Shown piece by piece: positions 20,411 to 61,073 of a DNA stretch of 64,000 nucleotides. The stretch lies in assembly GCA_963971285.1 (NCBI GenBank), contig OZ020262.1, positions 9,492,745 to 9,556,744 on the forward strand, in the 5' to 3' direction. This DNA is from Astropecten irregularis (Eukaryota; Echinodermata; Asteroidea; Paxillosida; Astropectinidae). The translations under genes and the position numbers were made by a program. The notes below the pieces were generated by a model. It made no database searches, was not told where the DNA came from, and saw only the letters and a program-made list of their open reading frames with translations. How positions within the stretch are numbered: the stretch's first letter is position 1; each line of letters opens with the position of its first letter.

Positions 20411-20775
20411 TTAAAGGTACTATCATACTTTGGTAGCATACCGAAACAGAAATCTTGACAGATTTACCTATAATTACAGGGTATGAAGATGGTGATGGTA
20501 GAAAAATACCGTTAAGATCTTTCTGCCTGAAATGGTGTATTTATCCAGAAAAGAGTAAACCCAATGACCAAAAACAATTTTGATTTTTTTTTTTAAGATA
20601 AAAAATAACGGTGACAAGATTAAAGAAATACTGTGGGCGCTTTTGCTTTTTTCTCAAAACGAGGGCACCGTATGGTACTGGAAATTTCACAGATGACTTT
20701 TACTGTATGTATCTTCCTTGATATTTTTGCCCATGAATCTGTATTACTTTGACAAAAGCCAAAGCATGATATTAT
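20411..20775. mobile_element. family B inverted-repeat element
   Basis: Opposite orientation to the copy 300 bp to the left. Left end TTAAAGGTACTATCATACTT; right end decayed (AAAAGCCAAAGCATGATATT). Confidence 0.85.
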
Positions 20776-25213: not shown

Positions 25214-25574
25214 TTTAAGGGTAATATCATACTTTGTTTTTGTCCAAGAAATGGAGATTCATAAGCAAAAATATCAAGAAAGATACAGCAACTGTGAAAT
25301 TCCCAGTCTCATACGGTGCCCACGTTTTGAGAAAACAGCAAAAACGCCCACAGTGTTTTTAAAATCTTTTCACGGTTATATTTTATCATAAATTTATCAA
25401 GATCAAAATTGTTTTTGGTCAATTGGTTTTACTCTTTTTCTGGATAAATACAGCATTTTAGGCAGACAAATTTTAACGCTGTTTCTATCATCACCATCTT
25501 CATACCCAGTTAGTTTTAGGTAAATCTGTGAAGATTTCTGCTTCGGTATGCCAAAGTATGATAGTACCTTTAAA
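25214..25574. mobile_element. family B inverted-repeat element
   Basis: Left TTTAAGGGTAATATCATACT, right AAGTATGATAGTACCTTTAA. Confidence 0.9.
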
Positions 25575-33484: not shown

Positions 33485-34000
33485 GGTTGGCATGGGCGGC
33501 CAAAAATGTTGCAAATCTTTACATAAGTTCACGAAAGACGGCGTGACCAAATTCAACATTAACAACTGAAAGTTTCCATAGCTGTAGAAAATACATACCG
33601 TCATTGCTTGTGTTGTTTCTATTACATTCAGCAATATATTTCAATATAATGTTTATGAAACGTTGTGTTCAAATTGTGGTTATTTTTATTCTCGGCTTTG
33701 ATGGCTCTCCATAGTTTCCGCCATATTGTTTGGCACAAATTCAGGCTGTGACGTTGTTGCAAAAGAAAGGTCTTTATACCGATGGCAAGCCATCAAAGCC
33801 GGGCATAAACAATAACCACAATTTGTACACGTTTCAGAAACATTGAAAGGATATTGCTGAATGTAATGGAAACAACATAAGCGCTGATTGTGTGTATTTT
33901 GTACAGCTATGAAAAGTTTTTCTTCAGATGTTGAATTTGGTCGCGCCGTCTGTAGATAAGACGAAATGATTTCAACATGTGGCTGCCCATGGCAACCTCG
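33485..34000. repeat. large inverted repeat (arms about 215 bp) upstream of the plus-strand ATP1B gene
   Basis: The left arm (about 33485-33704) contains GGCGTGACCAAATTCAAC and CGGCTTTGATGGC; the right arm (about 33789-34000) carries their diverged reverse complements, GTTGAATTTGGTCGCGCC and GCCATCAAAGCCG. The spacer is about 84 bp. It is probably an old inverted-repeat transposable element. It lies about 400 bp upstream of the start codon at 34396. A minus-strand open frame of 141 codons (34111-33686) reads through it, but the arm symmetry explains that frame better than coding. Confidence 0.75.
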
Positions 34001-34395
34001 AGCCAATTGTTGGATAATAATAATATTATAATAATGATCATCAATTATCCAACTTGTCTGTAGTAAACTTTGAATATCGCCCTCTATCATCACCATCGTG
34101 CCAGGCGGCAAACTCTACATCCGGGTACTTTACACCGCGCGGTTCACTCGCTGGTAACAAGCGTTACGGGGTACCAGCAAGGCATGCCGTAAAATACAGT
34201 CTTGTACCCAAACGCGTGTAATTATCATAAGCGTGTAATTAAATCGGACGAAAATGGAAATGTTTAAAGGGCGCCCGACTGTTTGGTATGCTAATGCGAT
34301 GTGCGGTCTCTTTTTTTTACCGGTGAAATTCTTCCATCGCTCAATTTCTTTTTTTCCTCGGTCTCTGGATAGCTAACGCGGTACCAACTTCAATC

Positions 34396-37300
34396 ATGGG
34401 CGAAGATCACAAACCAACATTTCTGGAAAATGTCCGCAATAATTGGACAGCATTCCGCCTGTTTCTGTGGAACTCGGAAAGGAGGGAGTTCCTGGGAAGA
34501 AATTCAAAGAGTTGGGGTAAATATTTCACGTTTTTTTCGTAGGTTTTTTGGAGGAGGCATTTCTCCGATGACTGACCTGGCTTGGGTTTTTTTTTACTCG
34601 ATCAATTCGACCGTAGAGGGCTCGTTTGGAGAAACCTTTTTTTGTGGTTTAATTTCAGTTTTTAGTCTTTTAACTTTACATTAAGCATAGGAGGGATAGA
34701 TAAGCAACATTCTTGGTTGAAATTGTGTTCATTTATAGCAAATTTAGGCTTAAATATACCAACCAAATAGACACGAAATAATGTGAGCAAAATGCTAGTT
34801 GCGATGATCGTAACCCTAGGTCTGACATGGGGACAGGGACCTTAGGGTTACGATCATCGCAACTAGCAAAATGCATGCATGCATAAATCGTTCATGTAGA
34901 AAGTGGGTAGGGCTGCATGCCTTTAGACTTCCATGTAAGCTTGTGAAACTTTCCGCCATAGCTTGCTATTTTCTCCAGGTCACACAAACTATCATTTTAA
35001 TCTTAAACGAAACAAGATTTCGAAGAGTTCTGCAGATGATCACCACATTGTCGTTGCTGGTTGTGGTGCTTAGCCTTAGTTGAAGTTCATGAGGAATCGT
35101 GCACATTTTCAATACATCGTAAGAAAGATTTTTGAGTCCCAGATTCACATGTTTTTGTTGTTTTGATTTGGTTCTTCCACCTCAATATATGACTGAATAG
35201 GATCGGCTTCAATAAGTTAACTGTATTTCTTATGGAAAGAGTGGTTGTCATCTGCAAAAATCCTTCCTAAAAAATCAACAAGAAATTCAAACAATTCATA
35301 TGAAATTGTAAAAACTATGTGTACATGTTGCAAGGTGTGATGAGCAGCATTTGTGTGGCTGCACAGATCACCATAGAGGGAGTACTTCGTGTAGCATGGC
35401 CTGAAAAAATTCCCGGGCTCAGCAAAGAAAATCCTACATAGTTGCGCTATATCAGTTTCTCTGACCCCACGGATTAACTCACTCTGACTCCATCTCTCGG
35501 TGGGGAGAGGACAGAAATATGACTGGGAATCACCCTGTTCCTGTCCGGGGAGGCTCGATGGCCTCGCAGGAAGTGAGTCAACATGATGAACCTGTCATAA
35601 TTAACCCCAGGATGAGGGATAGGGTCAGAGTAATTTCTAATGCCTACCTTCCCAGCACCCCCCCCCCCCCCCCCACCCACCCCTTAACTCCACGCTTACT
35701 GCTTTGTAACATGAGGGAAATGGGTTATATTAGGAGCGAGGAAGTCGCCAGTCACTGTACGTTAACCTGTAACCCAGGAGTTGGTGAGAAAAGTCTCAGT
35801 CGTTGCTGGAAATATTTGCCTCGACCTTGTACAGTCACCAAAACGTGGCTTACAACTGCCCTACAAACGACCACTTGTGTCTAACTTGAGTAGTTTGCCT
35901 GGGCTGGATTACACGAAACGTTAAGATTAAAGATGAGTTGTCAACTTGTCAGTATCACCATGGTAATTTGTAGTGTGACATCGCGCTTTGCATGGCAATT
36001 AAGATTTGTTCATAATTTAAGAATGGTGCTTGGTGAAATTCAACCACTGGTCTTACATTTTGAAAACTAGGTCATTTAAAGTTTCAAACTCTTACTTCTC
36101 ACAGGTCACTTTTATAAAAATGCTGAATTTTTCACATCTGCGAATTATGTTATTTTGGGAAACTTCATTGAATAATCATCCTAATTCTCATGTGATTCAC
36201 AACAGGTAATAAATGGATAATATTAGTGAACCCAATTTATGTCTGTTTGAGATGAATGATGGTTAATATTTGCTATATAATGCTGTAAAACTTGATGCAA
36301 TTGAGTTTGACAAGCCAATTTTGGGGTTTCTTATAAACCCCATGTGTGTCCATAAAGTCACATGCAGAATACATGTATGCAGATTACGCTTCCAGCAGTG
36401 ATCAGGATATTTCTACAGGTACCAGTCCCTGACCCTGTGAACTCGCCCACTATTGTGGAATTAAGACACGCTGTAATTGGGCTCCCTGTGTTAAGAGGGT
36501 AAAGTTCAATAGCTCAGTCAATGAATGACAGTCAGTTTAACCTGTGACTGGCCTTTCATTCCTATTAACTGATAAGAATCTGTAATTGCTGCCTTCAAAT
36601 CGAAATGATAATCCGCCTCATCAGAATTATCTCTTTTTGGTTGTGAAGAAATCTTGAAAAGGCTTAATTCTTATTCCGGTTGAAATGAAAACATCCAAAT
36701 GTTCCCCCTCTAAAACAAGTGCCATGTTGAATAGAATGTATTTGGTGGTTTTACACATGTACATGTACCTACTCCAATTACAAATTTGGGCAATAATTTT
36801 GCCCTCTATTTTATCATACACAGATTGATATCCATGTACAAAATACTGACAAATTAAAAACCCATTAGGCCTACTTCTGTTTCAATGGGAGACTTTGGAG
36901 AATTAACAGCGCACGCGCACGCAATTGTGAGCATGTGCGCCTTGCGCCGCCTTGTTTTATACGTGCGTACTCGTGTGCTGTTGACTTGAAGACCAATTCT
37001 CCAAAGTCTCCCATTGATCATTATACCCTCTATTTTATCTTTCCTAGATTCATATCCACGTACAAAATAGTACTGAAAATTAAAAACCCATTTGGCCTAC
37101 TTCTGTTTCAATTTGTTTGAAATATATCATCTATTATTTTTGGATGTATTGAATTTGTATACATTTTGTATTGGAGGTTTCCACCATCAACGTTTAAGTG
37201 TGTAGAGTATTCAGTATTGTGTTGGCCATAACCTACATGGTATAGAAGTTTAACTTTGTCACTACGTACCTGTAAAGTACCCTAGCCTGTTTGTCTTATC

Positions 37301-40300
37301 TTATCAGTGCTTGACTAGTACAAGTAGTAGCTTATGAATGCTGAACTGTGGATGATTAGGGCCATGTTTGTTCAAGTCAATGGGAGGCGTTGGTACAATC
37401 AATGAAGCTTTGTGTGTGTCACATGGACATGTATGCATGCACATTCCACTTAAAGAAGTTGCTCATTAAATATCTACATCCTGGTTTGGGTTTTTATTTG
37501 ATTTGTCGTAACCTTTTATCCGAGTTGTTGCAGGTTTATCGAACGTGATGTTATGCTTGATCAATCTTTTGGATATTTGAACCAAATCTGCATTGAAATG
37601 CAGTTCACTAATTCAAAATCCACTGAATGATTATAAATTTATACACATCTGTGTTTTGCACAATTTGAATACCCTTAACCCTAACCCACCTGAATACCAC
37701 AATACACCACAGTGTGGTTGTTCTGTTTTCATGGTAATGGTATGGTTTATGATCCAGTCCCCCTGTGGTAATGTTTGGTGAGCAGCTCTTGTCTTGTATG
37801 GTAGTTGTAGGGAGGGGAGGGTGTTAGCGTTAAAGGCATTCTCAGCATTAGATTTGCGTCATTTTGAAAATTTCTGTGGACAAAAAAAACATGGAAGTAC
37901 AATTAAATTTTGTGGCTGTTTTCATTTGTTTCTTTAAAAAAAATATTCAGAATGATTTTGATAAGAAAGAAATAAGAAGGGAAAAATGCTCTTTAAATTT
38001 ACATGTTGTTGACTGAAGGATACTACATTGTGATGCAATACTGTAACTCATCAAAGCTTTTCATCCAAGGCTCAATCTTCAATATCACTTGGTTGTTAAC
38101 ACCATATGGTCAGCGGGCTTTCTTGCAACCATTGAGAAAGATTTATTACATGTAATGAAATAGATCGCTTCAAATATTTGCATTTACACTAAAAGGGTTC
38201 AGTGCATGTGCAGTATCAGTTTGCGTAACGGCAACGTCCACACAGTGACAAAGGCATTATGGCCTGTCAGAGGTCTTGAATAGGCCTCGTATCTAATGAC
38301 CATTGATAAGGCCTTTTCCCACTAGAGCGCTCATCCCCGGGGCGAACTCACCCCGGCGCCACCCCGGGGTGAAAATTTCAACCCTGGTCCCGAGCAGGGT
38401 TGAACTAACCCCGGAGATAAGGCAATCTCGAGGGTGGCTCAGGGGTGACGGAGGGGTGAACATTTCAAGTGGGAATCGTGGCTTATTTTCACCCCTGCGT
38501 CACCCTGGGGCCACCCCTGAGATTGGTCAAGTGGGAAAAGGCCTATATACAATGATCGGTGACCTTGTTAATCGCTTTAAAGGCAGTATCATACTTTGGT
38601 AGCATACCGAAACAGCAATCTTTACAGATTTACCTATAACTTACGGGGTATAAAGATGATGATGGTAGAAATATACCCTTATTTTTTTTCTCCCTGAAAT
38701 ACTGTATTTATCCAGAAATGAGTAAAACAACAACCGAAAATCTTTTTAATCTTTTAAAAGATCAAAAATAAAAGAGTAAAGACTTAAGAAATACTGTGGC
38801 CGTTTTTCACTGTTTCCTCAAAAAGTGGGCACTGTATGGGACTGAAATTTTCACAGATGACTGTTATTCTATCTTCCTTAATATTTTTGCCCATGAATCT
38901 GTATTTCTTTGACAAAAACCAAAGTATGATATTACCTTTAAGTTCAACTTGAAATAAAAAAAAAAAAACATGTAATAATATTTTTTTTTTCATCCACTCT
39001 TTAAATTTTGTACAGTTTTATGAGTGTGTGTGGTGATGTGTAGCTTGTAATCTTATATTTGAACGCCTCTCAATCCTTGCGCTCTACACATTCCGTCTTC
39101 ATTCTTCTGGTTAATAATCTTCACAAGCATGAAATTCCCATATGTCCACCAGTTTCCATACATGTATTCCTTCATATTCTTCCTCATATCATTAACTAGA
39201 TATTTCCCTTGCTTGATAAACATCAGTGAACCCATAACGGTGTTGTACTTAATTTCAAAATGAGCTGTGTATGTTTTGTGTACTACTGTACTTTCTCATT
39301 TGTGCGAAAAACAAAAGAGCTGGCACTTGCAAGAATGGCAACGCGGTCGTGTGCTCACCGAAATGTATACCCGGAACCTCATTCATGATGCAGTTACTGA
39401 AATATAATTTAAAATTGTAATTCATGAAAAAAATTTTTTTTATACTTTTAAAGTGCTTATACTTAATTATGCAAATGTATGCATACTTGTACTCTGAAAG
39501 TAAATGCCATAGTGCAATGACCTTTACTTGCTGTTTTTTTTTTATAACACCTTGTCTAATCTGCAAAATGCACTTCATGTGAATTAAAATATGAACACTG
39601 CATTTTTTTTATATGAAACCAAACAATAAGTCCGCAATTCTTTGTGAAACCAGTGATGCTCACTGTCGTGTTTCAGCTTAAGATGGAGAAATAATCGAAG
39701 AAAAACAGACTTGCTGGCGTATGGCCAAGTTCATGGCATTTATATTATCAATCCCCGTTGAGACTAGTGCACAAGACGCAGTCCAGTACAAGATGTGTCA
39801 TAGTCACGCCACGGCGCTGTGTAAAAATAAACCCCTTCCTGTAATAGACCGTGCTGTGCCGTGCCGCTGCGACGTACATGTACGTACGAACGTAGTAGTT
39901 GTTGTATCCAGCTGATTGGTTAAGGTTAGTGTAGCACACCCGCATGATGTACAGTAGCATGGGAATGACGGCGCATGTGCACGTTCTTATAGTAATCATT
40001 ATTACATGCATGTATTATATGCTAACCCTTATAAGTGTGTGTAGTACAGTGTACATGTACACTGTGTGATATAGTGCAGATACCCATCTCTCATACAGTG
40101 TATAGGTCGTAACCATTCTTATCGTGATTATAAATTCTCCCACTGTGTGTATCAAATAAGAACCCTCAATATTTAACACTCGTCATTGCAGGAAATTGTT
40201 ACTGTTAACATTTTAGGCTTTCATTTTATATTTCTATTTAATCCACAAATTTACAAGCCTGGAATTTAACGGAGGCCATGGAGGCCATGGCCTTCATTGC

Positions 40301-43300
40301 TCTGGTTCTTGGCCTTTGTGCGAAATTGTGCCCGTGCAAATGTTTCCATAGACATAATGATTTTCCAATGGAAAATTGGCCTTGCCCTCACTAAACCTTA
40401 TTTCCAGCCCTGAATTTTAGAAGATCAGATTTTTCTGGAGCCTTGGTGACAATTTACTTTACATGTGCCCACATCATGTAATGTAATGCACAAATTACGA
40501 ATCATACATCGGGCAGTAACAGCAGGACAGAAATATTTTCCTCCGAGGAATTTGCTAATTTGATTTACTGGACATCCTATCATTACCAAGCTTCCTTTTG
40601 TTAAAATTCATTTCCAGTGTACGATCCATTTGCCGAGTGAGAGATGAATTGTATTGATGTCTAAATGCTGTAGGTTATACCATTACCAAGAATAACAGAC
40701 TCCTGTAATGGATGGGTTCTGCAGACATAATGTGTGGGGATTAATTGAATTAGACTTCATGTGGATGCACCACAGGGAGATTAATTAGCCAATACACACT
40801 GATATTTGCATAATTTATGCATGTATCTTGCTACAGTATTCACCTTGTAGTTCATTATGTTAATTTACATCCTTACTGGAAATGTGAAATTAAGTACAAG
40901 GGTATTTCATTTAGTTTTCTTTGAAAACCAACTAAGAGGGTTTGTAGTCTCACATGATTTTCAATGGAAATAAGAACAGTTTATGCCATTTATAAAGATC
41001 TTGTCCATTTTATTTGATTTCCAATTCCAAACATTAGGGAATTTGATGTAAGATTTGTAGATTCATCAATTTTTGGTCAGGAATTCCATTGACTTAGTGC
41101 TGCTGTGTCATATTGCCATCAAAAGCACTGTAGCTTAACTTTATAGACTCTTGCTTGGCGTAAGGAGGGGATTTCAATCCTAGCAGGATCGTTTCTCAAA
41201 TTCTAAATGGTATTTCATCAATTCCTAACAGTTCCAAAGTTATCAAAATATCAACTGGGATTTTCTTCGACATTTTCTCGTTTAACATTTTTCTGTGCAC
41301 TGGTTCAGAGTGTAACCATAAAAAAAATTGATGAAGTTTGCAGAGACAGTTTAGGAAAGGAAATGTTGAAAAATAATCTTATTTAGGACATAATTATCAC
41401 ATCATTATGAGTAAAACATGTGCATGGACCGAGCTTACCGAGCATGCATCTCAAAGTACATGTAATGACAGATATGCAGGTACATGTACTTGTAAGAGTT
41501 GCCCATGATAAATACCCGCCTTACAGGTACTACATACATTTACAAAACAGGTTATTCAACTTATGCCCATAAGCCGGGAATATAGGTTGCCTTAAATAAC
41601 AGTGGATATTTATGTTATTGTCTGCATCTTGTACAAATGTAGGTTTGGTTTAATAGAAAACCATTGTTGAATTATTAAAGCAGAAGAATAATGTTTAAAA
41701 TGGAAAGACAAATGAAAATGTTGCAGATGATGATATTTTTTTTCTTTTGGAATTGATGCGCATGACTACACGTGATTTGTAGAAACCTCATGTTTATTCA
41801 TCATTACAAAGAAAGGAAAACAATAGATTATTGTATGCAAATGAAAAGTTGGAAGCATGTTGCGTATGAATGGGACAATGAAGCCTGCGTTCTCAGAAGT
41901 TTTTCTTTTCAATTGAATGATTTTTGTAATCTTTTTTATCTTTCAGGTCAAATTGGACTCTTCTACCTGGTCTATTACATCTTTCTGGCGCTGTTCTGGG
42001 CTCTTATGATGTTCATCTTCTTGCAGACCGTGGATTCTGAGCATCCGACCTTTAATTCCTACGTTGGCGTACCAGGTGAGTTTCCCCCTCAAAATGTACC
42101 GTGTTTAGTGCGAACGAAATAGAAGTGCAAAAGTACTAATGATTATCACCTGTATGAGGCATTTTGGAGACAAGATATAAACGCATATTTTGTCTGTCTA
42201 ATTGATTAACTCAATGCAAAATGGCTCGGTCAGGGCTCAGCTGAATGACGGGTGACCATCAGGGTTCTAGCCAGACCAATTTTAGTGGTGGGCTCTAGAT
42301 ATGAAGTTGAGCCGTGGTGAGAAAAATGCAGCGCAACATGATCAAGGTCCAATGCCAAAATTTTCACTGTTCCGACGGCAGCGCCATTTAATGGTATAAA
42401 GCTACATTTTAAGGACTGATATTCAATGAATGTCAGATGTATAACAGAAAAGAGTGAACTTTTATTCCGGAATATGATAAAAATTCACGATATTGGCAAT
42501 GCTTTTATTCACTCTGTGGAAATTTGTGCTGGGCGGCAGAGTTTATTTCAGACCTATATTCCGGGCGCAAATTTCCAGTGCCGGGCTGGCCCGCCCAGCG
42601 CCGCCCACCGTGGCTAGAACCCTGGTGACCATAATACTCATACACCCCTCCTCCAGGAAAAAGAGTCATTTTCCTATTGAGCCTATGTACAATAATTAGC
42701 AGTCCATAAAATCCGTATTCACCTAAGCGCCAAGAACCAGGGCAACGAAGGCCATGGCCTCCGTTAAGTTCCAGGCTTGAAATACTGCATTTGGGTCTTC
42801 CTGTGTTTGACTATCTGTCTCTTTCTTTCAGGCTTGACATTGGTGCCCAAGTTTGACAACCAAGATGTAACATTCAACCCGGACGTACCAAAGAGCTACA
42901 AGGATCACGTGGACGCACTCAACAAAATCTGGAACGGTACGTTGATTCCATTCCTTCCTGCTGATAATCATTTCATTCCTCTTGTTTAAATTCAGCTTTG
43001 AAGTGAGACAAATGAACGCAAACATGCTGAGTGATATATGAGAAGAGTTGTTCCAAAAAATGAATCCTCTATCGACTGTAGAGTGGGGCTTGGTGGTCCA
43101 ACTTCAGAACCTTGCTGGGTTGTGGACTGTTCATTTGTATTGAAACATTAACAAGATCTGGGGTCGATTTCACAAAGCCCTGCGATCGATCGCAACTCAA
43201 GTTACGAAGGATAACCCATCGTATCCCACGTAGGGCTGCATTGCATCATAAGTCCTACGATTGATAGGGAGTTATGATGAGTTTGGTGAAATCAACCCCT

Positions 43301-45747
43301 GGTGTCGGTCACGTCACCCACAACCATTTTGCCACTTCGCCCATGCACCACTGTAACATTGTCCGGATTGTTCATTAACCATTAACCAACGCCAAGTGGC
43401 GTGTGGGCCAAGTGGTAAATTGGCGAAGTGACTATCAAACACCCGGGGTCGATTTCACAAAGCCCTACGATTGATCGTAACTCGACTTACGAAGGATAAC
43501 CCATCGTGTCCTCTAACTTCTATGTAGAGCTGCAATGTATCTAATTCCTACGATTAATAGTAAGTTACGATGAATTTGTTGAAATCGACCCCAGATCTTG
43601 TCCGTTCTATTCCTATGAAAAAAATATGAAAAAAATAAATAAGAAGCAAAAACTCGTCTTCTTCCTATGAGGATGGATAATTCCACAGAAGTATTGAATC
43701 CTTAGGAACTTAAAATGAGTGATTATAACCCTCATCTTCCCGATTTGATGTTTGTGGTGTAGATTTGGATCCGTCCAACCAGACGGGCAGCGAATTCGTG
43801 GACTGCACCAACGACACTGCACCAGAGGGGAAGTTCTGTCGGTTTGACCGGGAAGCCTTCGGGCCGTGTCAGCCACCAAACTTCGGCTGGGATGAAGGGT
43901 CCCCTTGCCTCCTGCTCAGCTTGAACCGAGTGAGTAATCCAGGGTCAGAAGAGGTCGACTGTCTCACGAGACTTCAAAACTGACCAAGTTGAACTGTCGA
44001 CACTCTTAAAACCTGGGGCCAAACCACAAAACAATGGGAGACTTTTGGAGAGTCGGTCTTGAGTCAACAGCGCAGGCACAAACCATGCTTGCGCAATTGT
44101 GAGCATGCGCGCGTTGTATTGCGCGTGCGTGTGCGCTGTTGACCCAAGACCGACTCTCCAAAAGTCTCTTATTGCTTGGTGGTTTCATTATAGTGTTGTT
44201 CCACTGTAATCATCAAGAGCCTATAGGTTGATTAGATTAAGGGATTAAGGGCTGGATAATCTGCAGATAACTACTGATACTTGGTAGATTAATCCCCTGT
44301 TGGATTACTATCTCACTGCTTAATCTTCAAACGCATTGGGAAATAGTTGTCAGTTGGCATGAGAAATCTTTTTAAGCATGTGTGGAATCTATACACCGAA
44401 CCGACGGTGCGACCATGGAGGTAGGAAACACCCGCCATTACTGCAGTGTCCCCGCCCGTATTTTGTCCGGCAACAAAATAACTTACGTCTGCCGCACTCT
44501 ATACTGCAGGGTGTACATCCCCTAATCATGGGATGTACACCATGCAATTAATGAGTGCGGCGGAGTGTAAAATCTTATGTTGCCGGACAAAAGGCAGGCG
44601 GGGACACTGCAGTAATGGCGGACAGTATAGCGTGCCGTCGGATCGGTCTATAGGCTTGATTGTACAGAGAAAAATCTGTGTGTAAAGTGTGAGAGCTTTT
44701 GGCATTCTGGGCCTGAAAGTATAGACATAACAGGTTATAAACCTAGTTCAAGCAGTTGCATTTGTTGATGATGAACTGTTTTTGTCGTTTCACAGGTTTC
44801 AGGCTGGGAGCCAGAGGACTATGAAGAAGGCAGTGTCCCAGAGGAGATTGCCGATGTCTACACTCCTGGGAACATTGCATTCCGGTGCATGAATTACGTA
44901 AGTCCGCCGATAATACAAACCCTGTCGGAGGTTTGAAATCCTCCCTCGTTTTGGCAAGATCCCACTCTGTGCTGCATCTTGTCTTACAGAAACCTTTCAT
45001 CTTTTATACCCTTTGCTTATAAAGTGAAGTAAGAAATGAAATAGAACTGGAATGGGAGCCAGGGTTTCAAATAAGTTCTTGGAAGGGAGCGAGGCATGTT
45101 CCTCCAAGATGTCCACTATGCTGTGTGTCTCCTAAATATCTTCCACACTCACTGCTCTGTCAGCCTGCATGCATTACATGTGCCCTTTTCCAAAGTTCGG
45201 CTCCGGCTCCGACTTTGTCTCTGTAATCCACATACTAAAAAAAAAATGGTGGCTTTTTATTGAAGCTGAAGCTGTTTTCCTTTTCAAACATGAGAATCTG
45301 CTTCCTAACCGCAGCCAAAAGCCTCTACTTTGATACCCGTTATTTTAGAAAAGCCGAAGCCGGAACCGAGGTTTGGAAATGGCCCATGGTCTGCATATTT
45401 CCCTGGTAACCTCTATCCCTGGTAACCGTTATCCCCGGTAACCTTTTATCTCCCTCTTACAGAAAAACAAGCACACCTACTCCAACAGCACCGTCTACCC
45501 GCGCGCTGGTATCCCGTTTGAGTACTACCCGTACGTGGGCTCTACCAATGAAACCAAGCGCGCTGGGTACATCCAGCCGTACGTGGCCGTCCAGTTTGAC
45601 TTCAACACTGAGGATGTGGTCATCAAAGTTCAGTGCATGACATACTGCGGTAACATCGCACCTATGGGCGGTCTGTACGACCTTGATTATCCGTCTGACG
45701 TTGTATACGAGTTTGTTTTATCAACGGCCGGCAAAGATGAATTGTAG
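34396..45747 (+). CDS. ATP1B: Na+/K+-ATPase beta subunit, six exons, 302 aa, ends in KDEL
   Basis: Beta subunit of a P-type Na+/K+ (or H+/K+) ATPase. Exons: 34396-34516, 41947-42075, 42832-42936, 43763-43929, 44796-44897, 45463-45747. All introns are GT-AG with phases 1,1,1,0,0, giving 303 codons including TAG. The ATG has A at -3 and G at +4. Signature F20..F23-L-W25-N26 ... L33-G-R-N-SKS-W40 is present, with Asn where the family motif has Thr. One signal anchor lies at about 42-66. Ectodomain Cys133, 144, 154, 167, 205 and 266 form the expected pairs, and Cys270 is extra. Sequons are at N124, N135, N216 and N237. The last four residues are KDEL, directly before the stop, on the lumenal side. 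Intron 1 is 7.4 kb and full of MITEs; the other introns are 0.56-0.87 kb. The first exon may also serve the exon set at 50248. Confidence 0.94.
34796..34865. mobile_element. 70-bp palindromic element with 9-bp target duplication
   Basis: TAGTTGCGATGATCGTAACC at the left is exactly inverted at the right, around a short centre. The flanks are GCAAAATGC on both sides (34787-34795, 34866-34874). It lies 280 bp into intron 1 of the plus-strand ATP1B gene. Confidence 0.9.
36790..37115. repeat. tandem duplication of host sequence split by a family E MITE
   Basis: The segment 36797-36884 (CCCTCTATTTTATC, CATATCCA-like, AAATTAAAAACCCATT, GGCCTACTTCTGTTTCAA) recurs at 37026-37110. The family E element lies between the copies. 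Confidence 0.8.
36884..37015. mobile_element. family E MITE in intron 1 of the plus-strand ATP1B gene
   Basis: Full palindrome, CAATGGGAGACTTTGGAGA to its exact inverse TCTCCAAAGTCTCCCATTG, 132 bp. Confidence 0.9.
38309..38544. mobile_element. palindromic element with AGGCCTTTTCCCACT ends
   Basis: AAGGCCTTTTCCCACT and AGTGGGAAAAGGCCT bound a C/G-rich body with repeated ACCCCGG and CACCCCTG motifs. Confidence 0.85.
38577..38941. mobile_element. family B element in intron 1 of the plus-strand ATP1B gene
   Basis: Left TTTAAAGGCAGTATCATACT and right AAGTATGATATTACCTTTAA, intact, 365 bp. Confidence 0.9.
39000..41946. other. rest of intron 1 of the plus-strand ATP1B gene
   Basis: A+T-rich with no exon or further element family seen except the repeat at 40258. 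The acceptor at 41945-41946 is preceded by a T-rich tract. Confidence 0.6.
40258..40393. mobile_element. repeat copy with AAGCCTGGAATTTAACGGAG end
   Basis: The end AAGCCTGGAATTTAACGGAG and the run CCATGGCCTTCATTGC, TGGTTCTTGGC recur inverted at 42714-42777. Both copies lie in introns 1 and 2 of the plus-strand ATP1B gene. Confidence 0.6.
42260..42624. mobile_element. hAT-like MITE with 8-bp target duplication in intron 2 of the plus-strand ATP1B gene
   Basis: The ends CAGGGTTCTAGCCA and TGGCTAGAACCCTG are flanked by GTGACCAT on both sides (42252-42259 and 42625-42632). Confidence 0.9.
42714..42777. mobile_element. inverted fragment of the repeat at 40258, beside an ATP1B acceptor
   Basis: GCCAAGAACCAGGGCAACGA and CCGTTAAGTTCCAGGCTTG are the inverse of the copy at 40258; 54 bp upstream of the exon at 42832. 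Confidence 0.65.
43162..43305. mobile_element. family C MITE in intron 3 of the plus-strand ATP1B gene
   Basis: Full copy: GGTCGATTTCACAAAGCCCT to GTTTGGTGAAATCAACCCC. Confidence 0.9.
43443..43593. mobile_element. second family C MITE in the same intron
   Basis: Same orientation as the copy 138 bp upstream: GGTCGATTTCACAAAGCCCT to TTGTTGAAATCGACCCC. Confidence 0.9.
44032..44175. mobile_element. family E MITE in intron 4 of the plus-strand ATP1B gene
   Basis: CAATGGGAGACTTTTGGAGA to TCTCCAAAAGTCTCTTATTG, 144 bp, with GCGCACGC-type alternating repeats on both sides of the centre. Confidence 0.9.
44390..44652. mobile_element. palindromic element in intron 4 of the plus-strand ATP1B gene
   Basis: The ends TATACACCGAACCGACGGTG and CGTGCCGTCGGATCGGTCTA are inverse. 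Inner arms CCCGCCATTACTGCAGTGTC and GACACTGCAGTAATGGCG are almost perfect; the centre reads ACATCCC ... GGGATGT. Confidence 0.85.
45199..45380. mobile_element. family D element in intron 5 of the plus-strand ATP1B gene
   Basis: Shows TTCGGCTCCGGCTCCGAC, TTGATACCCGTTATTTTAGA and the end GCCGGAACCGAGGTTTGG. Confidence 0.8.
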
Positions 45748-47692
45748 ACGTTCTGAGTCTCATTTCAAGATGTCCGACATTGCATCCTGATTTTCTTTCT
45801 TTCTTCTTTTTCTTTTTTTAATTTGAATGAATTTCAAATGGTTTTTTAGTATTCGCACCTTTTGTGTTGAAATATTTTGGGGGAGGTTTTGGTGAGGAAT
45901 CTTTCATCCGGCAAAAGGTCAAAGGTCATGAATCTCACTTTGAGGGTACTATTGGGAGTCGTGTCCTTTAAACTTTTGACATAAATTGATTCACTTCAAC
46001 TCGGACGACAAACAAGTCCTTTATCAGTTGCTAGCTGACTTAGAGGCCAATTTTTCTACCGTGTGGAATTGGTGCTCCAGGAAGCAGGCAGTTATGTACT
46101 GACGAGATCCGTTTTCATGGACTAGGGAGCAATTTTCAGTTGTGCACATGCCGTCGTTCTTATAACTGAGGCTTCCTCACGTACTCTGCTTGCATATTTC
46201 TGGCCGACTGATTTGTCGGGAGTTGAAGATGAGAGAGCTCACGAGAAAGAATGAATTTAATATGGATGTCATTCCATCTTGGCTGTAACAAAGTAGAATA
46301 ATTATTCTTTGGATTTTAAAATTCCTCTTCTTTTTCTTCTTCATTACTTTTCCCGTCATTCATTGTTTTGAAAATAGCACAATGTTTTTTTTTGTTTTCT
46401 TTGAAGAGATTGTCGTACAGAGCTGCAATCTTTGAGTGAAACCGATTCTTAGTATTGGGTAGCGAAAGCACGTAAAGTTCATAATCAGGCAACGGAGCCG
46501 TAGATTAAACAGGTAGTCTCTTTTCAAGCATAATATCCTTTCATCCAGGCTTTAGACAATTGTCGAGTTTTCACCAAGATGGTTCCCATCTAGGGTTGAT
46601 AAGAAGCCAACCATTTTATCGATCATTGACCTCGACAAAATAACGTTCTGATGCGTCCCTCCTGAAAATTTATAATAGATTCCTTTCCTTTGTTTTTCCA
46701 AGTGTTCAATTTTATTCAGTGGCATAGACTAAAGCTGTACATATTTTCGAGGGAACTGTAAATCGGGGTTTTTTATCGCGCCCCCCAAAAACAGTCTAGA
46801 GGTTGAATTTAGAAAAGATGTCAAAAAATATATTCCATTGAATAATAATTATTCGTGCATAGGTAATGTACATATGAATGTATTCCTATTTCCTAAGTAT
46901 CAAAACAGTAAACTAGTCAGTGAATTCCATGACGATCTTTATTGATAGCGGGGAGAAAGTTCCTTAGCAACAAGGAACAGCTTTTAGCCAATCAGATTAC
47001 AAGTGGGAACAAAAGAACAAGGCAATAATTAACGTTTTGAAAATTGAAAGTTTGAAAGTCAAGGTGAATATTTTTGGTACCAACTGAAGCATCTTGTGCA
47101 TTGGGAGGATTTGCCTGGATTTTGGACTGTGTAAAAACTGCCAAAGCAATGGTGTTATAATACATGAATATTCATGAGCACGAATATTCATAATACATGC
47201 ATATTCAGTTAAGTATACTGCACATACCAAAAGAAAGTAGCCAGACATTAGGGGAGATTCACTTTATTCTGATGGGACAGTTCGACGTGAGTTTTCAAGA
47301 ATTTGTCAAATGTGATATTAGTACAGTAGTTGAAAAAACCTACCTGAATCAGTACTGCACTCTGTGGGAACCGCCCGCCCCTGCCCCCCTGCTCTGTAAT
47401 TAGACTAACGAGGTAATTAGGCGGAGAGCAGATTTTTTGGAGATGTAAAGTTTGTATACAATCTGTGTCTTTAACAAAAGTAATTATGTGATTTTAATTT
47501 AATGTTAATTTTTTTTGTGGTTTTTCTTCTTTTCTTTTTTTGGTTTTAAATTTATTGTAGCCTTTCGGTTGATGAAGTGGCATTTAGTTTCTAAAATGCG
47601 TGAAATTAGATTATTTTAATGTTAGAAATGAACAAGACCCGACAACAACAAAATTTCCAATGAATTACTGTGACTGGTTCCATGTTCCATGC
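45748..47692. other. probable 3' UTR and spacer after the plus-strand ATP1B stop codon
   Basis: No second beta-subunit first exon and no repeat family is seen here; no AATAAA was found close to the stop codon. Confidence 0.45.
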
Positions 47693-47912
47693 AGCTGAAA
47701 CTAGTTGGAACTAGCTGAAACCAGTTGCAACTAGCTGAAACTTGTTGGAACTAGCTGAAACCAGTTGGAACTAGCTGAAACCAGTTGGAACTAGCTGAAA
47801 CCAGTTGGAACTTGCTGAAAATAGTTGCAACTAGCTGAAACTAGTTGAAACTAGTCGGAATTAGCTGAAACTAGTCGGAACTAGCTGAAACTAGTCAGAA
47901 CTAGTTGGAAGG
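47693..47912. repeat. 20-bp minisatellite, array 1
   Basis: About eleven copies of GGAACTAGCTGAAACTAGTC and variants (CCAGTT in place of CTAGTC early on). Non-coding, between the two plus-strand ATP1B exon sets. Confidence 0.9.
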
Positions 47913-48872
47913 AACAATCATGTGAATATTTTTTTCCATGTGGACAACGTGAAATCCAGATGAAACCAGTTCACAAAAGATAATTCTTTTTCCCCAGAAT
48001 TATCCTAAAAAGAGGGGCCAAAATATGAAGATTTTTCCTTAGAACATTTAATTTTCAAGTCAATTTTAGCCATTGCAATCACGTGTGTACTTTTTAGACT
48101 GTTAAATTTCCACAAAGTACTGTATGTAATATGGTTTTTTGGTTAATTATTGCTCCCGAGCGGACATTTAGAAGTAGGTGTATTTCAAACTAATTTACTG
48201 AATGTTTCATACAGCAGTCCTATTCATTTTCTTAACCAATTCATTCTCGACCCACGAACAGAGGAAATATTTGTGGTTTTCAACTTGCTGCTATAAAAAC
48301 CACGCATATTTTATGATTTTGAGAAAAATGTTTTGGTTTGAGAAATGGGATTGCGTGCAACATTTCATATTGTGTAAATTAGTGTATGTATTCAAATTAA
48401 ATTGTATTCTCTAATCTCTAATGTTGTATTCTATTATATAAAATATCTCTTGACGTACAATTTTTTCATTCACTTAATTAATTGAGTTCAGACGGTTTTT
48501 TAATTAGTTTGTAGAAAGAAAAGAAATTGGGAACGTGAAATTATGTCCGAACTTTTGAAGTACTACTACTAGGTTTAAGTATTATGATTAGATCTATGCA
48601 CAAAATTGATGTCAGCTTTTTGGGTTGGAGTTTATGATAATTGACGTAGGATAAGTGAGCAGCACTGTCGTAGCTTCACAAGTTTGATGTAATTTATGAA
48701 ACACAAAATGTATTCTAAACAGGATTATTCACTGTAACTTAAAAAGCAAAACAAAAGTATTAAGACCTATCTTGTAGAACTTGTCGGCGTAATATTTCAC
48801 TGTGCGCTTCAGTTATATTCCATCGAAACCTGGGAGGAAACATCTAAGAAGAGTTCTTGTAATCAACATCGA

Positions 48873-49160
48873 GTTGGAACTAGCTGAAACTAGTTGGAAC
48901 TAGTCAGAACTAGCTGAAACTAGTCGGAACTAGCTGAAACTAGTCGGAACTAGCTGAAACTACCGGTAGTCGGAACTAGCTGAAACTAGTCGGAACTAGT
49001 CGGAACTAGCTGAAACTAGTCGGAACTAGCTGGAACTAGTCGGAACTAGCTGAAACTAGTCGGAACTAGCTGAAACTAGTCGGAACTAGCTGAAACTAGT
49101 CGGAACTAGTTGAAACTAGTCGGAACTTGCTGAAACTAGTCGGAACTTGCTGAAACTAGT
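48873..49160. repeat. 20-bp minisatellite, array 2
   Basis: About fourteen copies of the same unit in the same orientation, 960 bp after array 1. One copy carries a 6-bp insertion (ACCGGT). This array is more uniform than array 1. Confidence 0.9.
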
Positions 49161-49632
49161 GAAACTGAAGATGATTTTTGTCATTTTTTGTGAAGGAAAG
49201 AAATAATTACCTCATCCCAGAAGTGGGATTATAGGGAAAGCAGCCGGTATGAGATCAAATCCTTAAACAGCTGAATACTGGAATGATTTGAAACCATCAG
49301 AAATGCCACCAGTAACTCTTAATTCTTTCTACTTCATCCAGGTCTCGATGGAATTGTTTAAGAACATCAACTTGAAGTATCATTCAGAGAAAAAAAAACC
49401 ACAAAACCAAACAATAACACCCCAACTTTTCAATGGAATTTTCCTGTGTGTGTGATAATTATGTGATCATATTATTGTATCATTCGTGATGACATTTTTA
49501 ACCGTATTTTCCCCCCCTTTAAAAAAAATACAAGGGCCTTATTCTGGGAGTTGCCATGGCAACGGGACACTGTGAAAGAACCCATGTGTCATTTTACTGG
49601 ACTTAAAAACAGGAGTGTTGCTCCAGGTTACT

Positions 49633-49638
49633 AATAAA
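49633..49638 (+). promoter_or_regulatory. possible polyadenylation hexamer between the two plus-strand exon sets
   Basis: AATAAA followed some 15 bp later by a T/G stretch. It lies 3.9 kb after the stop codon at 45747 and 0.6 kb before the next exon set. If used, the 302-aa transcript would have a very long 3' UTR including both 20-bp minisatellite arrays. Weak evidence. Confidence 0.2.
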
Positions 49639-50247
49639 ATTCAGTTGTTGACCCTTAAAAAAAAATTGCATGCTTGTGACTTTGTGTTTATTTTGTACTC
49701 TCCTTACCGTGTAAAAAGCATTTTATTCTGTAACCGGTCATCTTTTTTGTTTCAGATAAAATGACCCTCCTTTATAGTTGGTATGGTATTTTGTATCCAA
49801 ATTTGAATCCAATTTGTTTAAATTTAGTAAAAGTTATTCTGAGGTTGTTTGAATCGCAACGGGATTCCGCATTTCATCTGTTCAAGCCAAAATTGCTGTA
49901 TTTGTAGTTGGATGATGACTTTTAAGGCAGTATTGTTCCTGAGTAGTCTCTTGCAGCTGGTCTGCTTAGCTGGCCCTCTGACACTTAAATTTTAGAATTG
50001 GCAAATATTGCAGGTAGTGTTTCTCTTCAAATGGCTTGGCTCTTTGCTCTCTAAACCACGCCCAAACCACACCCTGACCACGCCCTACCCTCAGATCAAT
50101 TCCTTCAATAGGACAAGACAAAGTTGGTATACATGTACTTGGCAGCTCTTATTGCACATAATAATGTCTTTATTTAGAATTAATTAGAAATTACACCTGT
50201 CATTAACACGCACCTGTTTCTTCGTCTCATCTTCTTTCTCTTATTAG

Positions 50248-53175
50248 CTCAAGTTGGTTTCTTCTACTTAGTCTACTACATTTTCTTGGCCGGTTTCTGG
50301 GGTCTGATGTTTTACATCTTCTGGCAGACCATTGATATGGAGCGACCATCTTACAGTTCCTACGTCGGCCGACCGGGTGAGTTCACATTGCTGCTGTCTT
50401 TATGGCAAGATTAGTGCTAAGGCTCGTATCCTAGGTTAAATGCTCCTGACTACTATTTGAAGCAGACGGAATTCAAGCCTGACACTTCTGTCATTAAAGG
50501 CATAATACAGGATTGGTAAAGGTAACAGAACAGCTGCAGGCTGTTCATAACTTGTCTTGTCTTGAACAATTCTTTGACAAAAACCAAAGTATGATATTAC
50601 CTTTAAAGTTAATATCATACTTTGGTTTTTGTCAAAGAAATACAGATTCATGGGCAGAAATATCAAGGATGAATAGATACAGTAACAGTCATCTGTGACA
50701 TTTTCCAGTCCCATACGGTACCCGCTTTTTGAGAAAACAGTGAAAAACGGCCACAGTATTTTTAAGTCTTTTCTCTTTTATTTTTGATCTAAAAAGATCC
50801 AAAATAATTTTGGTCACTGGTCTTACTCTTTTCTTGATAAATACAGCATTTCAGGCTGAACAATTTTAACAGTAATATTTCTACCATCACCATCTTTATA
50901 CCCTGTGTTGGGACTAGGTAAATCTGTGAAGATTTCTGTTTCGGTATGCTACCAAAGTATGATACTACCTTTAAAACCTGACTACGTGTATTTTTTTGTC
51001 CTCTCAGGTCTGAAAGCGTCTCCGCACAGTGGGGACAATGTCCTCCAGTTCTCCACGGCTAATAACAACGACTACGCCAAGTATGTGGAACAACTCCAGG
51101 AAATCTGGGATTGTAAGTACAATGAGACAGTGGCGTCACCAGACTTTTGAGTCTGGGGGGGCACAAGGGGGGCACTAGCAATTGTTGGGGGGGGCACTAC
51201 AATAATATTTTTTTTTTTTTCACGAACCCAAATCTCAAATGGGGGGGCACGCGGGGGGGCACGAGGTTTTCCAGGGGGGGCACGTGCCCCCCCTGGCCCC
51301 CCCTTGGCGACGCCACTGCAATGAGATTGAAGATTCGAAATATTTGAGGCTTTGCATGGTGACAATTGGTATATGGAACAGTTTGCGGAAACACCATGCA
51401 AAAGTCGTTCATATTTTTGCATTTCCTATTTCGTCGCACTTCTGGTTAGGTCTCAACGTTTCAACCAGCCTTCTCTAATCATCATCATTCACAACACATG
51501 GAAATTTGGCTTTTAATCCTGTTTTTATTAATCATCAAATAACCACAAGGGAAACTGACTGAATTCTAAGTCATTGAAAAGTGAAGAAAGAAAAATTGAC
51601 TGGAGCGGGATTCGAACCAGCGATCTCCGACTCGCTCCATGCAATTTTTCTTTGTTCACTTTTCAATGGCTGTTTTTATTAAGAAAGAAATTCATGGTTA
51701 GCAATTTTTTTTGCTAAGCAGGGCCGTGAAATTGGCCCCTCAGGCTACCAGCCAAAAGTACTTGTTTGACGCATACCGCTTGTTTAATACTGGTATTCTA
51801 CCAAACGTTGACTGACGACATCCTGCTAAATAACATCCATGCATCTCTCTGATTGGCACTTGCATCTCTCTCCTATCGTAGCCTTAGCTCCTGAGAATCA
51901 GACAGAGGGTTACGTGGACTGTGAGAACGGAACTGGACCTCCCGAAGGCAAATACTGCAGGTTTGATCGTACCTTGCTGGGTGAATTCTGCATTCCTCCC
52001 GACTTTGGCTTCGACCAGGGCAAACCATGTGCCTTTATCAGTCTGAATCAGGTAAGATGTTGAAGAGGTCTTACTGCTCCTGACCCTTCATCAGAAATCT
52101 AAATGTTCTGAAAGTCAGAATCTATTGGAAAACTGAACAGCAGTGAACTAAGGAGGTTTACGAAAGGGCGGCTCAGGCTCCAGCTCTGTCATCCATTCAT
52201 TCATAATGCTGAAAATATAGGTTGTGGTTTTTTATTGAAGCTGAAGCTCAGTTTTCTTTTTCAAACCAGAGAATCTACTTCTGAACAGCAGCCAAAAGCC
52301 TCTATTTTGATACCCGTTATTTTAGAATGGATTCACGAAATTGAGCCTGAGACAGAGCCTGAGCCTCCGTTTCGTAAACCCCCTAAGTCTCTTCCTCAAA
52401 CCAATTCAAAGACCTTGTTGACTGTTGATCCTTCTTTTATCCTAGACAGGATTTCTAAGTTGAAATAGGTAGCACCAGCTGAAAAGAGTAGTCCAACCTT
52501 CCTCAACCCACTTGGACCTATTCCACTCACCCTGGGGTGATCCAACGTACCCCACCACCCCTATTAGCCTCCTATGTGTGTAACCTGCGCAACCCATTCC
52601 CCACTTCAAACCCCTATTTCACTCATCACTCCATCCTAGGTGTATGACTGGGTTCCTGAGGATTACAAAGAAGGCGAAGTCCCGGAAGAAGTAGCTGAAT
52701 CTTACAAGCCTGGTTACATCTCCTTCAAGTGTGGATCCTATGTGAGTATCGTAACTCTAGTTACAAAGGATAACCCATCGTAGGGGCCTATCCTAAGCCT
52801 ATCCTAAGTCCTACGATTGAAAGTTACGATGAGTTTGGTGAAATTGACCCCTGGTCATTTTGTTCAATTATTCCACAGAAAAACAAGAAGCCTGAGCAGC
52901 TTGGTGAAGGGACGAGGATCTACCCCTACTCGGGAATCCCCTACCACTTCTACCCCTTCCCCGGCACCACCAATGTCACCAAGAGGGCTGCGTACCAGAA
53001 GCCCTACGTGGCTGTCCGCTTTGACATCCTTGCCAAGGAGGAGGACGTGAAGGTGCAGTGTCAGACCTTCACGGGGTCCATCGAGCCTCTTAAAGGGATG
53101 TATGACACCAAGTTTGAATCCATCGTTGTCTTCACCATTCATCTCACTAAGGAGCCTGTTAATTTGGAGCTTTAA
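50248..53175 (+). CDS. ATP1B: second ATP1B exon set (exons 2-6) with no first exon of its own seen
   Basis: Five exons repeat the layout of the upstream gene: 50248-50376 (129), 51008-51112 (105), 51882-52051 (170), 52640-52741 (102), 52879-53175 (297, stop TAA). The corresponding upstream exons are 129, 105, 167, 102 and 285. All have AG/GT borders and the first exon here needs a donor in phase 1, as supplied by the exon ending at 34516. Joined to it the product is 307 aa, with signal anchor at about 42-66 (FFYLVYYIFLAGFW), Cys132, 144, 155, 168, 206 and 270, and sequons at N124, N134 and N241. It ends in LEL, without the KDEL of the neighbour. I found no exon resembling the W-N ... G-R ... 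S-W start between 45748 and 50247. It is either an alternative 3' cassette or a tandem duplicate with a diverged first exon or lost start. Confidence 0.9.
50494..50974. mobile_element. two family B ends, tail to tail, in the first intron of the second ATP1B exon set
   Basis: A short remnant (50494-50606, ending AAGTATGATATTACCTTTAA) is joined to a full copy (50604-50974) starting TTTAAAGTTAATATCATACT and ending AAAGTATGATACTACCTTTAA. The full copy stops 33 bp before the acceptor of the exon at 51008. Confidence 0.85.
51128..51318. mobile_element. hAT-like MITE with 8-bp target duplication next to a splice donor
   Basis: The ends CAGTGGCGTC and GACGCCACTG are exact inverses and are flanked by CAATGAGA on both sides (51120-51127 and 51319-51326). 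An 8-bp duplication and CAG...CTG ends fit the hAT superfamily. The body is made of G-rich GGGGGGGCAC runs. It begins 15 bp after the end of the exon at 51112. Confidence 0.9.
51340..51480. mobile_element. fragment of the element at 6118-6345
   Basis: Shares GAGGCTTTGCATGGTGACAA, GCGGAAACACCATGCA, TTTCGTCGCACTTCTGG and GTCTCAACGTTTC with the copy at 6118. Confidence 0.75.
51532..51669 (-). repeat. SINE with 13-bp target duplication nested in a family A MITE
   Basis: A 138-bp tRNA-like unit (TTCGAACC, TTTCTTTGTTCACTTTTCAA) is flanked by CTGTTTTTATTAA on both sides (51519-51531, 51670-51682). That sequence is the internal part of a family A MITE whose pieces continue at 51491-51531 and 51670-51740. 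Confidence 0.85.
52157..52382. mobile_element. family D element in an intron of the second ATP1B exon set
   Basis: GTTTACGAAAGGGCGGCTCA at the left and GAGCCTCCGTTTCGTAAAC at the right are inverse. It lies in the same relative region as the copy at 45199 but in a different intron, so it is an independent insertion. Confidence 0.85.
52746..52854. mobile_element. family C MITE filling a 137-bp intron of the second ATP1B exon set
   Basis: Begins about four bases after the donor GT at 52742 (GTATCGTAACTCTAG) and ends GAGTTTGGTGAAATTGACCCC, 24 bp before the next exon at 52879. It makes up most of this intron. Confidence 0.85.
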
Positions 53176-53343
53176 GTCAGTCATGAGGATTATTAGAGGA
53201 CAGGGGGTTGTGGTGGGTTGGAGGGTTGTGATTAAAGAATTGGGAACAGCATGTGATTAGAGATAATAGGATGAGTGGACAGGTGCTAGGTGTCGTTATT
53301 TGTGTAGAGTTATGCAGAAAAGGTCTTCGTGTAACATTTAAAC

Positions 53344-53820
53344 CCTGCTAGACCAACCCAACACCCACCAGCACCCTGTTACCCAAAACCTTAACCTTAC
53401 AACATCCACACAACATCTTCTCTCCCTCGCCTGAATCACCACACCCAGTCACCCACACCTGAACCCACCACACCCATCCTACACCCAATCACCCACACCT
53501 GAGCTCACCACACCCACCTTACATCCACACCTGAACCCAACACACCCATCCTACACCCAATCACCCAAACCTTAACCCACCACACCCACCCAACACACAA
53601 TCACCCACACCTTCACCCACCACACCCAATCACCCACACCTTCACCCACCACACCCACCCAACACCCACACCTTCACCCACCACACCCCAACCCACCACA
53701 ACCACCCTACACCACGTCACACCCAACCCACTCCCCCATCCTACACCCAGTCACCCACAACCCAACCCACCACACCCATCCTACACCCAGTCACCCATAC
53801 CTGAACCCTACTAGACCCAC
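53344..53820. repeat. CACCC-rich tract after the second ATP1B exon set
   Basis: Irregular repeats of CACCCACC, CACACCCATCCTACACCC and CAATCACCCACACCT over about 480 bp, strongly C/A on the plus strand. Starts 170 bp after the stop codon, so it is probably within the 3' UTR. Confidence 0.85.
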
Positions 53821-54163
53821 CTCCCTATAGTAACTCATCTTCAAAGATTATTCTTTATAGTTATGGAACTTTTATGCAGTTTAATTTAATAATGAAATGG
53901 AAATCATGCATGCTTGACCTAATCAATTAGATTAGGTTCTTTGTTAAATCTTCATCGCATGACAGAAACAGTTTGGCCTACATTTTCTATGGAACTGTAA
54001 TTGAGCCTCAACAATTGGTTGATTCCTACACACACGTGACTCTTCATTAATTGCAGACCTTTTGATTGGTTTAAAACTTTTGGACTCATCCAAGGGGATG
54101 TTTTGCATATTTTTGAAAGAAGAATGACTGTGAAATTGTTGAATTGAAGCACATTGTGATCCC

Positions 54164-54233
54164 AATAAAACATGATTAAATTCTTTCCCCAAGAAAGTGT
54201 CATAACGTGTACTCGTTTTCACTTAAGAATAAA
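54164..54233 (+). promoter_or_regulatory. candidate polyadenylation signals for the second ATP1B exon set
   Basis: AATAAA occurs at 54164-54169 and again at 54228-54233, about 1.0 kb after the TAA at 53175 and after the CACCC-rich tract. These are the first good hexamers I see downstream on this strand. The assignment rests on position only. Confidence 0.35.
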
Positions 54234-56528: not shown

Positions 56529-57112
56529 GGGGCCAATTTCATGGAGCTACTAAGCACAAACAATTCACAAAATGTCTTGCTCAATAACTTACAAAACCAC
56601 CATTAAAAGTTCCATTTCATATCACGGTCAGCGAATAACAGCCAAAGAACAATCATAAGTGATACACAACACATAGAAATTTGGTTGGTAATCCTGTTTT
56701 TAAAGGTAGTGTCATACTTTGGTTTTCATCACAGAAATACAGATTCATGGGCAAAAATACCAAGACAGATATATACAGTAACAGTCATCTGTGAACATTT
56801 CAGTCCCCTACGGTGCCCACTTTTTGAGAAAACAGTGAAAAACGGCCACAGTATTTCCAGTAAGTCTTTTCTCTTTTATTTTGATCTTTTAAAAGATCCG
56901 AAAAAGATTGTCGGTCCTTGTTTTACTAATTGCTGGATAAATACACCATTTCAGGCGGGAAAAATTTTAACGGTATCTTTCTACCACCACCATCTTCATA
57001 CCCTGTAAGTTATACGTAAATCTGTGAACATTTGTGTTTTGGTCACTTACCAAAGTATGATACAACCTCAAAGCACATTTTGTGTGCTTAGCAGCGTCAT
57101 GGAATTGGTCTC
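56529..57112. mobile_element. family A MITE split by an inserted family B element
   Basis: The left part (56529-56700) runs from GGGGCCAATTTCATGGAGCT to the internal GGTAATCCTGTTTTT. A family B copy occupies 56701-57070. The right part resumes with AGCACATTTTGTGTGCTTAG and ends GTCATGGAATTGGTC. Confidence 0.85.
56701..57070. mobile_element. family B element nested in a family A MITE
   Basis: Left AAAGGTAGTGTCATACTTTG, right CCAAAGTATGATACAACCT; sits inside the family A copy at 56529-57112. Confidence 0.85.
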
Positions 57113-60936: not shown

Positions 60937-61073
60937 CATTGAAAGGTGAACAAAGAAAAATTGACTGGAGCAGGATTCGAACCGGCGACCTCCTGTATAC
61001 CGTACAGGCGCTCTACCAACTGAGCTCAGTGACTTCAAAATTCAGTCAGTTTCCCTTGTGGTTATTTGATGAT
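60937..61073 (-). repeat. tRNA-like SINE
   Basis: On the minus strand: GAGCTCAGTTGGTAGAGC, a 5-bp anticodon stem CCTGT/ACAGG with a 7-base loop, GGTTCGAATCCTGCTCC, then the family tail. The base before the anticodon is not T and the acceptor stem is poor, so it is counted as repeat. Confidence 0.8.

Follow-up and report, generated by a model that had tools for sequence, protein, structure and literature searches.

How two complete sets of downstream exons can be supplied with a beginning when a single recognisable first exon lies on their strand is the question raised by this Na,K-ATPase beta subunit (ATP1B) locus. In the window (the whole 64-kb stretch of Astropecten irregularis DNA that was analysed), an exon on the plus strand encoding the conserved cytoplasmic start of ATP1B (exon 1, 34396-34516, 121 nt, equal to 40 codons plus 1 nt, with exon end GGG and intron start gtaaat) is followed on the same strand by two sets of exons 2-6. 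Set A consists of exon 2, which encodes the transmembrane segment (41947-42075, 129 nt, phase 1 to 1), exon 3 (42832-42936, 105 nt), exon 4 (43763-43929, 167 nt), exon 5 (44796-44897, 102 nt), and exon 6 with its stop codon (45463-45747, 285 nt). Set B has the same order, with the transmembrane exon 2 at 50248-50376 (129 nt, phase 1 to 1), exon 3 at 51008-51112 (105 nt), exon 4 at 51882-52051 (170 nt), exon 5 at 52640-52741 (102 nt), and exon 6, stop codon included, at 52879-53175 (297 nt).

This exon anatomy is real. The coordinates, lengths and phases of both full sets are as the preliminary description had claimed; the phases are 1,1,1,0,0 in both, every intron has GT-AG borders, and the frames are open. 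Two homologous, phase-compatible 3' sets stand behind one common exon. The phase-1 donor of exon 1 does fit both acceptors in frame, its final G completing a Gly codon at exon 2A and GCT (Ala) at exon 2B; Ala is also the junction residue in gene C, a third ATP1B gene of the window. Joined to exon 1, set A gives 302 amino acids and set B 307, with no internal stops. The acceptor of exon 2B has pyrimidines at 18 of 20 positions. A G at donor position +5 is missing from 2 of the 14 modelled donors, those of exon 1 and of gene C exon 3.

The predicted products of both sets are Na,K-ATPase beta subunits, by sequence matches far beyond chance. Joined to exon 1, A matches PF00287 (Pfam) with 212.8 bits (7.4e-63) and B with 191.4 bits (2.4e-56), where the curated cutoff is 23.3 bits, and among solved structures both match Na,K-ATPase beta chains best (A at 1.1e-38, B at 4.1e-38). 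The six conserved extracellular cysteines of the beta subunit form three disulfides. A has 7 cysteines and B has 6; in the alignment with solved beta chains, six coincide with the cysteines of those chains.

Gene C (27230-32355, minus strand, 354 aa) is complete with its own exon 1, its six exons lying at 32355-32133, 31093-30965, 29948-29838, 29169-28979, 28281-28159, and 27517-27230. Its phases are the same as those of A and B, and it matches PF00287 at 169.3 bits. Exons 2-6 are thus present three times at the locus, and exon 1 twice. Gene C stands head-to-head with exon 1, with 2,041 bases from ATG to ATG; between the two genes lies an imperfect palindrome (33569-33919, arms of 69 nt and 28 nt, each 86%). 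The predicted cytoplasmic N-terminus of gene C is the longer, with 74 residues up to SW versus 40, and over their final 70 nt the two exon 1s agree at 49 positions. The FLGR..SW cytoplasmic start is present on exon 1 and on gene C, and set B would have it only if exon 1 is shared. The earlier statement that only one exon 1 is visible holds for recognisable homologues on the plus strand of the whole window, but it overlooked the exon 1 of gene C on the minus strand (32133-32355), which provides a positive control for exon-1 detection.

We searched for a first exon of set B with a profile of seven sequences, exon 1 and gene C among them, that models the conserved end of exon 1. Over both strands of the 64 kb it found exactly two strong places, exon 1 (score 77.3) and 32134-32202 on the minus strand, in gene C (74.2). 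Leave-one-out scores were 68.9 and 64.0 for these two and ranged from 51.4 to 76.6 for all seven; the lowest belongs to gastric H,K-ATPase beta, and all seven exon 1s were still recognised. On the plus strand from 34517 to 50247 the best score was 6.3, or -3.0 with a phase-1 GT required, while 20 first-order Markov resamples of the same interval gave plus-strand maxima of 7.3-16.9. The best other plus-strand place elsewhere scored 20.5 and overlaps set B exon 3 in another frame. A looser motif search of the plus strand returned exon 1 and two further places, at 47269 and 58858, both of which lack a correctly placed Trp and donor; the sequence at 47269, LMGQFDVSF, is missing the final Trp and has no donor directly after it. 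In tblastn searches with A and B, nothing beyond the exons of A, B and C had E below 1.0; on the plus strand, three such rows touch exon-1 residues: 25319-25369 (E 1.9; contains a stop codon), 50627-50662 (E 9.9), and 56724-56849 (E 7.4).

We also considered starts within the introns directly upstream of each exon 2. Extension of exon 2B into its own intron was rejected as a start, as its frame contains no ATG before it is closed, 22 codons upstream, by the stop at 50181. The frame upstream of exon 2A is open and contains ATGs back to a stop at 41763; it has no family similarity in the profile scan, and we take this alternative start to be due to chance. Every letter of the window is A, C, G or T, which leaves no marked gap in which an exon could hide. 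Given the profile, motif and tblastn scans, the stop upstream of exon 2B, and the unbroken sequence, a homologous second exon 1 on the plus strand of the window is very unlikely.

A homologous exon 1 for set B could still lie beyond the window, at a distance of more than 34 kb on the upstream side of exon 1; alternatively, trans-splicing could supply exon 1 from another transcript. The window's plus strand has no other recognisable exon 1, and the final G of gene C exon 1 would also give an in-frame junction with set B. An outside exon, however, would need an intron of more than 50 kb across gene C, exon 1 and set A, and trans-splicing would call on a process without direct evidence here when a suitable cis donor is nearby. 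We regard both routes as very improbable.

The main rival explanation makes set B a tandem gene in its own right, driven by a promoter of its own and beginning with a first coding exon without recognisable homology to other ATP1B first exons, which would lie in 45748-50247 or in the first intron. Old duplicates usually carry their own promoters, which counts against a shared exon 1 and in favor of this explanation. Stretches that run from an ATG to a phase-1 donor do occur in both intervals. Between the sets (45748-50247) there are 6 of at least 35 codons, compared with a resampled mean of 2.3 (14 of 200 resamples reach 6), and the same 6 of at least 25 codons, compared with a mean of 4.75 (68 of 200). 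Intron 1 has 29 of at least 25 codons versus 14.5 (3 of 200) and 10 of at least 35 codons versus 7.5 (56 of 200). One of the stretches between the sets, starting at 47197, contains the loose LMGQFDVSF motif. The six stretches, however, represent three start sites, each counted with several donors, and many of the candidate counts are of this kind, one start site with several donors. The filter used here, with loose donors, recovers both controls, exon 1 and that of gene C, while a stricter one with G at donor +5 finds gene C exon 1 and misses exon 1; neither is selective enough to decide. Against a separate gene there is further the family profile, by which nothing exceeds 6.3 on the plus strand of 34517-50247 even though all seven tested exon 1s are recognised when left out, the lowest at 51.4, and the interval before set B shows no rise in CpG. 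We therefore consider a separate set B gene unlikely, while giving it appreciable weight. Of the earlier alternative, a tandem duplicate with an unrecognised first exon, the version with a homologous exon 1 is very unlikely on the plus strand of the window, and the version with a non-homologous one survives in these candidate stretches.

CpG observed/expected has a median of 0.69 across 26-56 kb and reaches its maximum of 1.22-1.23 at 33751-34500, in two windows just upstream of or reaching exon 1. Before set B, all CpG windows starting at 45751-50001 are at or below 0.90, with those starting at 49251-50001 at 0.39-0.54; the window across the end of exon 6A (45501-46000) has 1.04. The absence of a CpG rise before set B, unlike exon 1, makes only a weak case for a shared promoter, because the start region of gene C has just 0.77 and windows inside gene C, which are not known promoters, have 1.12-1.16. 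A bacterial-type promoter scan of 45748-50247 gave 15 sites versus a mean of 13.4, a result that is uninformative for an animal genome.

The sole AATAAA between the two sets (49633-49638, plus strand) is followed by a GT-rich stretch and is the probable poly(A) signal of set A. If it is used, the 3' untranslated region of set A would be 3.9 kb long and stop some 600 bases short of exon 2B. This would leave little room for a separate B promoter, first exon and intron unless these overlapped the 3' untranslated region. ATTAAA variants between the sets at 46504 and 48396, if used, would give more room for a separate start of set B. The possible poly(A) signal of set B is an AATAAA at 54164-54169 (plus strand), with another at 54228. 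Between A and B there is also a 20-nt tandem repeat (AACTAGCTGAAACTAGTCGG and variants) in two arrays, 47693-47910 and 48872-49166, both inside the possible 3' untranslated region of set A. Directly 3' of set B lies a C-rich imperfect repeat of the ACCCACCACACCCA type (53437-53821), and the strongest GC skew of the window, -0.275 in the 2-kb interval 52001-54000, covers it.

Our preferred reading, which we hold to be reasonably probable with splicing deduced from the sequence, is that one promoter and the first coding exon are common to two alternative five-exon 3' cassettes. Joining the donor at 34516 to exon 2A across a 7.4-kb intron would give beta-A, and joining it to exon 2B across a 15.7-kb intron, past all of set A, would give beta-B. 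Because exon 6A ends in a stop, a transcript that takes A would also be bound to use a poly(A) site between the sets, for which the AATAAA at 49633 is the best candidate; choice of B would need the A acceptor and this poly(A) site to be passed over. The donor of exon 1, weak through its missing G at +5, may delay pairing with the nearby acceptor and so give the distant one a chance to compete. The two proteins would have the 40-residue cytoplasmic tail in common, and the differences between them would lie in the transmembrane helix and the outer domain. A point against sharing is that passing over five exons and a poly(A) site asks much of co-transcriptional splicing. The two sets probably go back to a tandem duplication that took in just exons 2-6 and had its 5' breakpoint within intron 1, which would have left set B without a first exon from the outset. 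The junctions, poly(A) use, single promoter and duplication origin are all what we infer. The shared first exon put forward in the preliminary description is partly supported, by the lack of a homologous plus-strand rival, by an exon 2B without a start in its intron, and by the fit of phase and junctions; what that description said of the two products went too far.

The membrane and outer domains of those products had been called entirely different. This is overstated, because outside exon 1 A and B are 50% identical in amino acids (exons 2-6), rising to 67% for exon 2 with its transmembrane segment (29 identical among 43 aligned residues) and amounting to 56% over 300 aligned positions when the shared exon is included. 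Over exons 2-6, identity to gene C is 40% for A and 35% for B. A tree of seven sequences groups A and B against C plus the others with a support of just 52%, so the pairing of A with B rests more on identity (50% versus 40% and 35%) than on the tree. Between A and B, dN is 0.44 and dS 2.38, with pS 0.72, near saturation; the synonymous distances A-C and B-C are saturated. The path from A to B in the tree is 1.13 substitutions per site, compared with 0.66 between bovine and shark beta-1 chains. The near-saturated dS and this long path suggest that the A-B duplicates are probably old.

We compared the 1,000 nt upstream of exon 2A with those upstream of 2B, the 1,500 nt downstream of 6A with those downstream of 6B, and the 1,000 nt upstream of exon 1 with 45748-50247. 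The only similarities in these three comparisons were 14, 19 and 17 nt long (E 0.010-0.045), too little to place the duplication breakpoints. Complementary arms in intron 1 and 45748-50247, which could loop out set A, gave no match at E 1e-3. A search for relatives gave no match in the viral_contigs collection.

Set B might instead be an orphan or in decay and not be expressed as protein, and in favor of this, no first exon of its own is recognised. Its sequence is intact, however: five open exons, splice sites all present, the six cysteines kept, an alignment with solved beta chains, and dN well below dS. These features count against decay, and we assign this explanation only a slight probability. 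Exons could also be mixed between the sets, for example as 1-2A-3A-4A-5A-6B, to give hybrid beta subunits. Each of the four A-to-B switches that we tested keeps the frame and brings in no internal stop, so such hybrids are possible on paper. The agreement of phases is nevertheless expected from common descent, and hybrids may fold poorly because the sets have diverged to 50% identity, so that mixing of this kind seems a distant prospect. On balance we lean slightly towards a regulated either/or choice between two old cassettes, which would produce two beta subunits with the same tail and a different helix and outer domain, in-frame hybrids being possible.

Drosophila nervana 2 is a Na,K-ATPase beta locus that makes isoforms. 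Its alternative exons lie at the 5' end and vary the cytoplasmic tail while the remainder is common, the mirror image of the present locus. Vertebrates use separate beta genes. If our preferred reading of a shared exon 1 is correct, pump tuning and the outer surface would be switched by splicing alone under one promoter. In work on mammalian pumps, the beta transmembrane helix is given as the main determinant of the beta-2 shift in the E1P-E2P balance, and the cytoplasmic and extracellular beta parts are each exchangeable without major effect (PMC4742777). Exon 2, the first exon swapped here, encodes this helix, and a common tail with an exchanged helix would be functionally sensible because the helix carries the main isoform effect (PMC4742777).

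Duplicated 3' endings chosen by splicing are already known, with GNAO1 and oyster alternative oxidase (AOX) as smaller precedents; here 5 of 6 exons and nearly the whole protein would be involved. In GNAO (G alpha-o; GNAO1), exons 7.1-8.1 and 7.2-8.2 are described as duplicated and mutually exclusive (PMC5896119). The likeness lies in a duplicated multi-exon 3' ending that gives two proteins with a common N-terminal part, and the difference in that GNAO swaps the final pair, exons 7 and 8, with two transcripts reported, whereas here 5 of 6 exons would be exchanged by inferred splicing (PMC5896119). Oyster AOX, as reported, likewise has a tandem duplication at its 3' end and alternative 3' splicing in a marine invertebrate, but a single exon 10 is duplicated and both mRNAs were shown (PMC5589949). 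This locus would belong to the class of tandem duplicated exon substitutions described in human, in which C-terminal swaps are enriched (77 of 236 events) and of which one event, DUSP13, covers the whole protein; the main text of that report contains no words beginning ATP1B (PMC9741552). Among the literature matches listed, comprising titles and abstract starts from a library with few subscription papers, none concerns a shared-exon ATP1B gene. If the preferred reading is correct, the 3' cassette would be unusually large at 5 of 6 coding exons, and old by its divergence. With gene C head-to-head beside it, the cluster lends itself to testing how partial as well as full duplicates come to be retained.

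Apart from the ATP1B genes, seven long ORFs of the window were scanned against Pfam, and none matched a family. A dispersed repeat of about 380 nt, with copies 77-85% identical and in both orientations, occurs at 50560-50990 and, almost at full length, at ten further places, for example at 38576-38941, 20410-20774, and 56699-57068; copies also lie in introns of the locus, and 45748-50247 has none at E 1e-10. Two tRNA-like sequences were found, one at 12520-12593 on the plus strand (48.6 bits by Rfam, tRNA-Thr GGT by ARAGORN) and one at 60970-61026 on the minus strand (34.3 bits by Rfam). By eye, stretches of the GGATTCGAACC type in introns near 28620-28750, 30240, and 51600 are similar to tRNA-like sequences, which suggests that they are tRNA-derived repeats.
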